64,000 nt of DNA from Aminobacterium mobile DSM 12262. GTDB taxonomy: Bacteria; Synergistota; Synergistia; Synergistales; Aminobacteriaceae. The stretch is from the NCBI RefSeq assembly GCF_000526395.1, contig NZ_JAFZ01000002.1, positions 188,501 through 252,500 of the forward strand, in the 5' to 3' direction. The notes under the pieces were generated by a model. The model saw nothing but the letters and a program-made list of their open reading frames with translations. It was not told the origin of the DNA and ran no database searches. Made by a program: the position numbers and the translations under genes. Positions 47,256-49,272 of the stretch are shown piece by piece; the stretch's first letter is position 1; each line of letters starts with the position of its first letter.

Positions 47256-48596
47256 CTAACGAAGGCCATTCCACATAATTAGAACAATAGCTATAGGAGC
47301 AAAAAAACGCAGTATCAAAAGCCACGGTGACATAAAGGCAAAGTTGAGTCTGCCTTTATTGGAAACATTATCTTTGATTCTATCTGTTACAACCCATCCT
47401 ACAAAAAGGGAGATCAAAAGACCGCCTGTAGTTAAAAGAATGTTATTGCAGATCCAATCCATGGCATCGAGAAAACTCTTACCAAAAAGATTAATGGGAT
47501 AGGCACCCTGGGAGAGAGCTGATGGAATTCCAAGAAGGAAGATAGCCGTTCCCATAAGAAAGGAACTCTTTCCTCTGCTCCAGCCCAATTCATCTTTACA
47601 GTAAGAAACGACCACCTCAAAAAGAGATACCGACGAGGTAAGTGCAGCTATAAAAAGAAGTGCAAAAAAGAGCCCCGACCAAACCATACCACCCCACATC
47701 TTCGAAAAGACTGCGGGCAAAGTTATAAAAGTAAGGCCTGCACCTGCTCCCGCATCAATACCAAAAGAGAAAACAGTAGGGAAAATGATTAATCCTGCAA
47801 GAAAAGCAACAAGGGTATCAAGAAGAGTAACTATGGCAACTGATTTTGGAATATTTTCATTCTTGCCAATGTAACTGCCAAAAGTAATGAGGACCCCCAT
47901 GCCGAGAGAAAGGGAATAAAAAGCCTGTCCCAAAGCATCAATAATCGTGCCCCCAGTAACTTTGGAAAAGTCGGGTTTAAGATAAAAAGCAACACCTTTC
48001 GATGCTCCGGGAAGCGTCAAAGCCCTGGCAACAAGAATGAGTATGATGACAAAAAGTCCTGGCATGAGGATTTTGCTGGCCCGCTCAATACCTTGTCCAA
48101 TGCCTTTATACACTACAAGAACAACCATAAGCATAAAAGCAAAAAAAGCAAAAAGAACTTGAGTGGGATTGGCAATAAAGCCTAGAAAAGCATTCTGAGC
48201 AGCCGACGTATCATGAAGAGACATGAGGCCTGTGAACGACTTGAAAATATAAGCGAAAGTCCATCCCCCTATAACTGCATAGTACGAGAGGATAATAAAA
48301 GCCACAACTAGTCCCATCCAACCAACGATAGGCCAGGCCCCTCCCTTTAGCTCCTTGAAAGCTCCCACTGCATTTTTTTTCGCCGCACGCCCGATGACAA
48401 ACTCTGCCAGCATTATTGACGCTCCAATAGTGAATGCCAAAATAACGTATATCACTAGAAAAGCTGCTCCTCCATTTTTCCCTGTAATGTAGGGGAAACG
48501 CCAAATATTACCAAGACCAATTGCTGATCCTGCTGATGCGAGGAGAAAACCAACTTGGCTTCCCCATTGTTCCCTTTCCGTTTCTTCCTGTTTCAC
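47256..48596 (-). CDS. Sodium-dependent amino-acid transporter, SNF (NSS) family
   Basis: A Na+ symporter of the neurotransmitter-sodium-symporter family with about 11-12 helices. Near the N-terminus it has WGSQVGFLLASAGSAIGLGNIWRFPYITGKNGGAAF, the sodium and substrate site. The family substrate is usually a neutral amino acid, fitting an amino-acid-fermenting anaerobe. The frame opens at 48629, but AGGAGGGG lies seven bases before the GTG at 48596 (MKQEETERE), so that start is used. A tiny membrane peptide gene lies upstream with a terminator between. Confidence 0.93.
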   Translation of the reverse strand: MKQEETEREQWGSQVGFLLASAGSAIGLGNIWRFPYITGKNGGAAFLVIYVILAFTIGASIMLAEFVIGRAAKKNAVGAFKELKGGAWPIVGWMGLVVAFIILSYYAVIGGWTFAYIFKSFTGLMSLHDTSAAQNAFLGFIANPTQVLFAFFAFMLMVVLVVYKGIGQGIERASKILMPGLFVIILILVARALTLPGASKGVAFYLKPDFSKVTGGTIIDALGQAFYSLSLGMGVLITFGSYIGKNENIPKSVAIVTLLDTLVAFLAGLIIFPTVFSFGIDAGAGAGLTFITLPAVFSKMWGGMVWSGLFFALLFIAALTSSVSLFEVVVSYCKDELGWSRGKSSFLMGTAIFLLGIPSALSQGAYPINLFGKSFLDAMDWICNNILLTTGGLLISLFVGWVVTDRIKDNVSNKGRLNFAFMSPWLLILRFFAPIAIVLIMWNGLR

Positions 48597-48723
48597 AAAA
48601 ACCCCTCCTATCAATATTTGAATATTCAAAAAAAGAAAGACGCGCAGTGATAAGCCTCATTTATATCTTTAAATATTTAGCTTTTTAAAAATTTAATATG
48701 ATTATGATAACCGGATAAAAAAA

Positions 48724-48753
48724 GGGGTCGGGCCCTAAAAAGGGTCCGACCCC
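48724..48753 (-). terminator. Terminator after the small membrane peptide gene
   Basis: GGGGTCGG-G-CCCT pairs with AGGG-T-CCGACCCC (one G-U pair), loop AAAA, then seven T on the minus strand. Its only upstream gene on that strand within 300 bases is the 31-residue peptide, supporting that peptide as a real transcription unit. Confidence 0.9.
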
Positions 48754-48775
48754 GAAAAGTCTGCCGGCTAAAAAA

Positions 48776-48871
48776 TCAAATGCCAGTAGGCGCTCCGGAA
48801 GAGGACCCGCAGCTAATAATAACTAGGAGTATAATTATTATGTTAATTAAAATATTCCAATTGATATTCAC
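48776..48871 (-). CDS. 31-residue membrane peptide upstream of an SNF transporter
   Basis: GTG start with an excellent AAGGAGGGGAAC ribosome site and an open frame of 31 codons: one hydrophobic helix (ILINIIIILLVII) then SCGSSSGAPTGI. It ends 22 bases before a strong terminator. Some SNF transporters have tiny partner subunits (MetS-type), which makes this a candidate, though the SCG segment could also be a lipobox of a micro-lipoprotein. Gene-finding by length alone would miss it. Confidence 0.55.
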   Translation of the reverse strand: MNINWNILINIIIILLVIISCGSSSGAPTGI

Positions 48872-49044
48872 TGCGTTCCCCTCCTTGCTATTAGTGTATT
48901 TTGTATCCTTGAAAGTAGCGCTATCTTATATATTATTTTCAGACTTGTCAAATTCTATTTCATTAAATATTTCAAAGCTCTTTCCTGAAGAGGTATTCTT
49001 AAAAAATTCAAATCGATCTTCTCGTTACTCTAAAAAGAAAAGGG

Positions 49045-49114: not shown

Positions 49115-49188
49115 TGGGGAATGGTGCAACGGCAGCACGCCTGACTCTGGATCAGGTAATCCTGGTTCGAATCCAGGTTCCCCAGCCA
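49115..49188 (+). tRNA. tRNA-Gln (anticodon CTG)
   Basis: Seven-base acceptor stem TGGGGAA/TTCCCCA, anticodon stem CTGA.. with CTG in the loop, T arm GGTTCGAATCC and encoded CCA. It is followed after eight bases by tRNA-Glu. Confidence 0.97.
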
Positions 49189-49196
49189 GTAAAAAA

Positions 49197-49272
49197 GGCC
49201 CCATCGACTAGAGGTCAAGGTCGTCACCCTCTCAAGGTGGAGACACGGGTTCGAATCCCGTTGGGGCTACCA
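49197..49272 (+). tRNA. tRNA-Glu (anticodon CTC)
   Basis: Acceptor stem GGCCCCA/TGGGGCT, with CTC in the anticodon loop, T arm GGGTTCGAATCCC and encoded CCA. Cotranscribed with tRNA-Gln. Confidence 0.97.

Follow-up and report, generated by a model that had tools for sequence, protein, structure and literature searches.

A predicted leader-peptide attenuator ahead of an SNF transporter gene in Aminobacterium mobile and related leaders in Synergistota

In Aminobacterium mobile, a reading frame of 31 codons with a single hydrophobic stretch lies upstream of a gene for a transporter of the SNF (neurotransmitter:sodium symporter) family. Does this mini-gene exist for its peptide, as the preliminary description of this DNA supposed when it suggested a tiny transporter subunit, or for the RNA that encodes it? 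Below, we argue that it is very probably the leader of a ribosome-mediated transcription attenuator of the SNF gene, a prediction that draws on the anatomy of the unit, its conservation, mutually exclusive pairings, covariation and the match between leader residues and downstream genes. Coordinates refer to the window, the whole 64,000-nucleotide stretch of DNA that was analysed.

Anatomy and conservation of the leader unit

The strong ribosome site, GTG start, 31 residues and strong terminator upstream of the SNF gene that the preliminary description listed are all confirmed on the minus strand. That parts list stands, and a promoter upstream of it, absent from the description, was found here by scan. 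The features are as follows.

48951-48923, minus strand: leader promoter TTGACA-17-TAAGAT (promoter scan, 10/12 matches)
48886-48878, minus strand: leader-peptide ribosome-binding site AAGGAGGGG, invariant in three genomes and also within the 5' arm of hairpin 1:2
48884-48798, minus strand: hairpin 1:2, Shine-Dalgarno (SD) sequence and codons 1-7 with codons 14-25 (folding; pairing in three genomes)
48871-48776, minus strand: leader-peptide reading frame VNINWNILINIIIILLVIISCGSSSGAPTGI, GTG start at 48871, 31 codons, TGA stop ending at 48776
48841-48815, minus strand: sensor codons 11-19, Ile4 Leu2 Val Ile2, the predicted stall site, with amino acids invariant in 3/3 genomes
48808-48742, minus strand: predicted antiterminator 2:3, arm 48808-48782 (codons 22-30) with arm 48768-48742
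48753-48717, minus strand: intrinsic terminator 3:4, stem 48753-48742 with 48735-48724, then T7 to 48717
48596-47256, minus strand: SNF family transporter gene, 446 aa (PF00209, NF037979)

The whole unit, from promoter to terminator (48951-48717, minus strand), stands 120 nt ahead of the SNF gene. The GTG start of this gene at 48596 is preceded by a good ribosome site; initiation at a TTG farther upstream (48629) would lengthen the protein to 457 aa. Judging from the position of the promoter, transcription probably starts near 48916. The promoter, as TTGACA-17-TAAGAT or TAGAAT, is present in all three genomes of the genus, and the whole scan returned 12 promoter-like sites against 10.4 +- 2.9 in shuffles. 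Codons 11-19 specify nine Ile, Leu or Val residues in unbroken succession, and a spacer of 22 nt separates the reading frame from the terminator. A segment of 40 nt with the T run at its 3' end has a folding energy of -25.1 kcal/mol; a terminator-scan tool left this leader hairpin off its list, probably because of an A/C mismatch in the stem. Taken together, the 211-nt leader folds more stably than 200 of 200 dinucleotide shuffles (z = -4.0).

Three genus genomes were compared, and all carry the SNF orthologue (90-93% identity). Leader frame, SD, promoter and terminator are likewise kept in 3/3; the preliminary description had looked to conservation of the frame in close relatives to decide whether the mini-gene is real, and on this point its expectation is borne out. 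The three leader peptides are VNINWNILINIIIILLVIISCGSSSGAPTGI, VIINRNTLVNIIIILLVIISCGPSSGAPTGI and VNVNLNILINIIIILLVIISCGSSSGVPTGV: the run NIIIILLVIISCG is invariant, the tail is nearly invariant, the first nine codons drift, and indels near the reading frame occur after the stop codon only. Pairwise DNA identity is 91-97% over codons 10-31 and the stop and 86-95% over the non-coding spacer behind it. It falls to 61-74% from the terminator to the SNF start, and fourfold sites within the SNF gene show 57-59%. Since conservation extends into the non-coding spacer, an RNA-level feature is kept, and not the peptide alone.

The same anatomy could belong to an independent small gene or small RNA, with the SNF gene served by its own promoter behind the terminator. 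The unit does have a promoter and a strong terminator of its own, and the 120 nt after the terminator are AT-rich with a conserved TTTTGAA.AT.CAAA. However, it is the upstream promoter that is kept while this stretch is only 61-74% identical, the scan finds no promoter-like site of at least 9/12 between terminator and SNF gene, and the related leaders described below precede genes that fit their residue runs. We therefore consider such independence very improbable.

Two neighbouring elements are recorded here in their own right. Two tRNA genes (window 49115-49269, plus strand) diverge from the leader promoter, and this pair upstream of the leader is conserved across the genus alignment. The AT-rich inverted repeat TTTTGAA.AT.CAAA (window 48615-48633) lies just before the SNF ribosome site, is conserved in all three genus genomes and could be an operator; CodY-like sites in Synergistota are AT-rich palindromes according to the available part of PMC9318921.

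Alternative hairpins and a predicted switch

For the three genus leaders, antiterminator folding was computed on RNA that begins with the sensor codons and stops after the terminator 5' arm. All three RNAs form the same long hairpin, in window letters GGGUCC..UUCCGGAG.G.CU.CUGGC, a loop with the stop codon, and GCC(A/G)G.AG.C.UUUUCGGGG..GG(A/G)CCC. This hairpin is built from the C-terminal codons, the non-coding spacer and the terminator 5' arm, and its loop (48781-48769) contains the leader stop codon. Its energy, computed from codon 20, is -27.8 to -30.8 kcal/mol in the three leaders before the terminator 3' arm is made, and it excludes the terminator because it takes up the terminator's 5' arm. 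Across the three genomes, 98.5% of the antiterminator's pair cells hold, whereas sliding the arms leaves no more than 67.7%; of the pair cells of hairpin 1:2, 91.9% are paired. The resulting 1:2, 2:3 and 3:4 layout is that of classical attenuators.

The stability of the antiterminator depends on leader codon choice: when codons 20-31 are recoded synonymously at random, with uniform codon choice, no more than 17, 5 and 6 of 2000 trials equal it for the three leaders. Compared with dinucleotide shuffles, the antiterminator stands out only a little (133, 69 and 60 of 2000 are as stable), and 219, 190 and 122 of 2000 shuffles match the energy gained from the terminator arm. A stall model gave a mixed picture: the antiterminator is favoured in all three genomes with the A site at codon 17 (0.77-0.81) and in two of three at codon 16, and it reaches only 0.43-0.62 at codons 11-15, most of the Ile run. 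It still forms in two genomes without a ribosome (0.61, 0.80), and in genome G022 with a ribosome at the stop codon (0.78). When the complete RNA is folded at equilibrium, the terminator wins in almost all of the computed states; the switch would thus have to be kinetic, as is assumed in known cases.

Leader-peptide attenuation itself is classical, and the parts described above suggest how it could operate at this locus. Polymerase would start near 48916 and a ribosome would begin to translate the 31-codon leader. With ample charged Ile, Leu and Val tRNA, the ribosome would reach the stop codon in the antiterminator loop, where its footprint would hinder the antiterminator while the SD re-pairs with the codons behind it (1:2); the terminator (3:4) could then fold, and transcription would end short of the transporter gene. 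When any of these tRNAs is short, the ribosome would stall in the run Ile4-Leu2-Val-Ile2 and leave codons 22-30 free to pair with the spacer and the terminator 5' arm (2:3). Once this antiterminator has formed, polymerase would read on into the transporter gene. Stalling, read-through and the substrate of the transporter are the parts of this attenuator reading that we infer. The leader peptide itself would need no function, and its tail would be conserved because its codons are RNA structure.

Several features expected of attenuators are present at this locus. Firstly, a short reading frame with its own SD is found in 3/3 genomes, and a terminator stands between it and the gene. Secondly, the codon run corresponds to amino acids relevant to the gene, the substrate of this SNF protein being judged from its similarity to MhsT. 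Finally, the antiterminator is exclusive of the terminator and is backed by covariation in the wider family; in the three genus genomes alone, 330 of 500 shuffles do as well, which is not significant.

Read from its sequence, the peptide would be a membrane helix with the residues IISC, which we take to be a lipobox-like motif. The released 31-mer might also act in trans beside its part in attenuation, as reported elsewhere for leader peptides such as peTrpL (PMC7298713, in its available part), but the hydrophobic residues are the sensor codons, the tail is accounted for by RNA pairing, and leaders of the Met, Thr and Phe types would yield quite different peptides. Such a second role strikes us as highly unlikely.

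Related leaders across the order and phylum

The attenuator reading gains from relatives of this leader elsewhere in Synergistota. From the three genus leaders, a covariance model (R1) was built that spans the tail, the antiterminator and the terminator; at E<=1, it has matches in 75 of 180 genomes of the order. Its 112 rows comprise the three genus SNF leaders, 82 rows at E<=0.0118 that were examined, and 27 weaker ones that were left out (one of these, in L114, is in the alignments). A leader reading frame ends inside the R1 match in 82/82 rows examined, with an SD score of at least 4 of 6 in 80. The first procedure for picking frames favoured those rich in Ile, Leu and Val; a composition-blind repeat left 75/82 picks unchanged and gave no frame for the third L088 copy. 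When frames are picked by SD alone, 81/82 rows have one and 80 reach an SD score of 4 or more.

The genes behind these 82 rows encode the acetolactate-synthase small subunit (41), SNF transporters (6), IlvC (5), MetQ-type proteins (5), SSF, LctP and FAD proteins (2 each), and LeuA, LeuC, PanB, MetY, an amino-acid binding protein and a radical SAM protein (1 each); 13 rows are without an assigned downstream gene. Names rest on Pfam and NCBIfam for representatives and on a sequence signature for the others. For example, an acetolactate synthase small subunit follows the leader VSEYRIAVELVLIVVVLVLISCGSLPGVPAD, an amino-acid binding protein follows VKLHNMFNNVSFFFSFFFSCGSPPGALDAI, an NlpA/MetQ-type lipoprotein follows MICNVTNGADKAMMMCMMPRGSSPGMVGA, PanB follows VKHSRVTKRVSFDVVVVVDVLSCRVLPGVDVGV and LeuC follows MSKINHVTCLNTLLLGLLTGCGSPPRSCR. 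Ile/Leu/Val runs stand before ilvH, ilvC, leuA, leuC, panB and SNF genes, Met runs before metQ-, metN- and metY-like genes, a Thr run before a homoserine dehydrogenase gene, and aromatic runs before genes for a PaaK-like ligase and transporters. With composition-blind frames, Ile/Leu/Val is the largest of three residue classes in 54/55 ilv, leu, panB and SNF loci (55/55 with the biased procedure), and Met occurs at least twice in 6/6 met loci with either procedure. Such leaders also precede six SNF genes from two families other than the Aminobacteriaceae (one confirmed by Pfam).

A refined model (R2) was made from 90 aligned matches, of which four (E 0.047 to 0.83) were dropped to leave 86. 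At E<=1, the genomes of the genus contain 4, 8 and 9 R2 matches. A Met run, NSMMMCMCGGPP, precedes a MetN-like gene in 3/3 genomes (two checked by Pfam), and FFEYYY or FLGYYY precedes a PaaK-like CoA ligase gene in 3/3 (two checked); both proteins are named '-like' because their matches fall under curated NCBIfam cut-offs. Aromatic runs also precede an SSF symporter gene in one genome and, in three, a gene for a membrane protein that we take to be YkvI-like (the one tested is without a Pfam match). SLSLLLGC or SLSLLLLGC precedes LeuA in two genomes (one checked), VTTTTTMTTC precedes a homoserine dehydrogenase gene in one, and a Leu/Ile run precedes a lactate-permease-like gene in two (L171, L172), which suggests that this protein carries a branched-chain keto or hydroxy acid. 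The leader run at L182, read by eye, is NRFFLYWFSVGP. In the phylum, R2 matches at E<=0.01 occur in 110/185 genomes and 47/62 genera, and all listed genomes with a match belong to one order.

A protein-first sample gave a similar view of the ilvH loci. The 30 best acetolactate-synthase small-subunit loci were taken from 123 genomes with one; 28 were located and 2 were not, and a terminator, an SD and an Ile/Leu/Val-rich leader are present in 28/28 located loci, with a picking procedure that favoured such frames. Many of these loci, but not all, are also R1 matches.

Two further arrangements are recorded among the matches. At L088:614-959, in G114, tandem attenuators with identical leader peptides lie 240 nt apart before ilv genes, and a third match follows 3.4 kb on. 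At L168 and L169, an attenuator with an Ile/Leu/Val run has as its nearest recognised gene that for an FAD-dependent protein, more than 350 nt downstream.

The family was also delimited by searches that returned little. A protein profile of the peptide, run on 81 Aminobacteriaceae genomes, finds only the three genus copies clearly (E 2e-17 or better); the next matches have E 0.03 and weaker, and eight that were inspected looked like chance. We think that the relatives escaped the profile because what they have in common is confined to the tail and the RNA. R1 has no match at E below 1 at SNF loci of other genera in the same family (L007 E 1.3, L023 E 1.7). At 40 SNF loci outside the genus, a filter for SD and hydrophobicity found no leader-like frame resembling this peptide and one unlike it, in L017; at three of these loci, the upstream sequence is short (80 nt in L028, 360 nt in L031 and 52 nt in L037). 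At gathering score, Rfam 15 returns only tRNAs in the 64-kb window and in 15 family loci. Within window 48600-49000, nine weak Rfam matches up to E 5 fall under gathering scores, with T-box not among them, and a T-box core search in the window gave nothing convincing.

Covariation in the aligned matches supports the antiterminator. Among the 86 matches (80 distinct), 90.5% of antiterminator cells are paired, while shuffles give 77.9% and sliding the arms no more than 61.7%, and double changes number 185 against 54.4 in shuffles; 0/500 shuffles reach the pairing or the double-change value. R1 and the derived alignments contain the antiterminator, so these pairing counts lean towards it. In an anchored test, six segment-2 bases at a fixed distance from the 5' end were set against a terminator arm found de novo at 79 loci. 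Own pairing lies above all 5000 permutations, and six of six bases pair in 67/79 loci. Loci with non-consensus hexamers pair six of six in 28/39 cases, against 984/2932 mismatched combinations. Examples of paired hexamers across the loci are GGGTCC/GGACCC, AGGTCC/GGATCT, GGGACC/GGTCCC and GGATCC/GGATCC. When 80 leaders were aligned by sequence alone, antiterminator pairing was 70.3%, compared with 67.6% after shuffling, and the outer six pairs carried no signal; this alignment did not recover the terminator either (27.9% vs 28.7%). A swap test on 28 ilvH loci, which have identical hexamers, gave 2395 of 5000. The ribosome site pairs with the tail at -18.5 kcal/mol, against -11.8 for shuffled tails (82 loci), and no more than 5 of 100 shuffles are as good in 59/82 loci.

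The best reading of these comparisons is that the SNF leader belongs to a Synergistota family of related attenuators with a common scaffold, interchangeable sensor codons and no Rfam match. On balance, we lean towards a single inherited scaffold that was copied across the genome and retargeted just by exchange of the sensor run (Ile/Leu/Val, Leu, Val, Met, Thr, Phe or Phe/Tyr/Trp), the SNF leader being one copy. The scaffold would then probably consist of the SD, the sensor codons, an SCGSPPG-type tail that is also switch RNA, a stop near the antiterminator loop, and the terminator. Sequence shared across residue classes would point to common descent of all copies.

The family also bears on the proposal of the preliminary description, in which the 31-residue helix is a MetS-like tiny partner of the SNF transporter. 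We find this reading scarcely credible: length, single hydrophobic stretch, SNF neighbour and a frame kept in 3/3 genomes recall the MetS-like small subunits of NF033493, but the peptide is without a match to that model and to any family at E<=1, and is accounted for by codons tuned to the antiterminator and by RNA, its tail is common to leaders with Met, Phe, Thr and aromatic runs ahead of unrelated genes, the terminator stands between peptide and SNF gene, conservation runs on into the non-coding spacer, the scan found no such peptide at the 40 SNF loci outside the genus, and MhsT works as a single chain. NF033493 is over its cut-off in 0/3 genus genomes, and the one genus candidate (16.2 bits, cut-off 25) sits downstream of a different SNF gene, in G022 (L073). 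Leader peptides of such size are easily annotated as small membrane proteins, and this mini-protein is most simply read as a sensor.

Substrate prediction and comparison with known systems

The closest solved relative of the SNF protein is MhsT (4us3), ahead of LeuT. MhsT takes several hydrophobic amino acids, and this similarity, together with the leader codon run, suggests Ile, Leu and Val as substrates. In the genus genomes, the acetolactate synthase large subunit is found in 0/3 at E<=1e-20 (14/14 controls are positive), the small subunit is not found, and no ilvC is over cut-off. With no acetolactate synthase detected, the genus presumably imports Ile and Val, other routes being possible, and an importer that responds to starvation would make sense. 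More generally, the family yields substrate predictions for transporters in a phylum of amino-acid fermenters: Ile/Leu/Val for SNF, aromatic amino acids for SSF and YkvI-like proteins, and Met for NlpA/MetN-like proteins.

The enterobacterial ilvL and leuL leaders (of ilvGMEDA and leuABCD) have about 30 codons, an Ile/Leu/Val run and alternative antiterminator and terminator hairpins. The leader described here is similar in its roughly 30 codons with an Ile/Leu/Val run, followed by mutually exclusive hairpins. Unlike ilvL and leuL, it is predicted to control an SNF importer, in a genus where no acetolactate synthase was detected, its stop codon lies in the antiterminator loop, and its RNA scaffold is common to leaders for several amino acids; sequence relation to them is judged by the absent Rfam match alone.

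A comparable leader is the ilvD attenuator peptide of Staphylococcus aureus, a leucine-rich leader with a terminator that regulates an operon for branched-chain amino acids, next to control by CodY (PMC5794164, available part). Both leaders are branched-chain-rich and are followed by a terminator, but in S. aureus, as far as that part of PMC5794164 describes, it is the poly-U tail that is sequestered and the stem of the terminator remains intact, whereas the terminator 5' arm would be captured here. A CodY-like regulator is described in Synergistota, with Aminobacterium among those listed (PMC9318921, available part), and by analogy with S. aureus (PMC5794164) the branched-chain pathway may be under double control. 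In Actinobacteria, ilvB is preceded by terminators and by candidate leader reading frames in which Ile, Val and Leu codons form runs, and a LEU element is described as well; the available part of PMC1262725 describes no scaffold common across amino acids, in contrast to the shared scaffold here. The available text of PMC2965389 (where 'Synergist' does not appear), PMC1262725 and PMC9413887, where Synergistota appear for HisR, does not contain such a family in Synergistota, and among the papers listed by literature searches, none is recognisably about it by title and the start of the abstract.

The scaffold we propose, one attenuator design serving many amino acids, invites a further comparison. 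The T-box is likewise one scaffold for many amino acids, set by a specifier codon, which controls biosynthesis and transport genes and reads uncharged tRNA directly. The likeness lies in a single scaffold retargeted to many amino acids; unlike the T-box, a translating ribosome would read the leader reading frame here. If a single origin holds, the scaffold would be a ribosome-read counterpart of the T-box over importers, biosynthesis and aromatic metabolism. The T-box model RF00230 has no match at the leader, and the window gives only tRNAs at gathering score; a weaker T-box match may lie there, as three of the four such matches of genome G000 are listed. In the order, T-box matches occur in 128/180 genomes at E<=0.001, and 42 have a match over cut-off. 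Within the genus, T-box matches of 85 and 89.7 bits follow the SNF gene in two genomes, at distances of about 1.5 and 2.8 kb downstream (G004:C1:599813-600032 and G022:C1:1533344-1533576).
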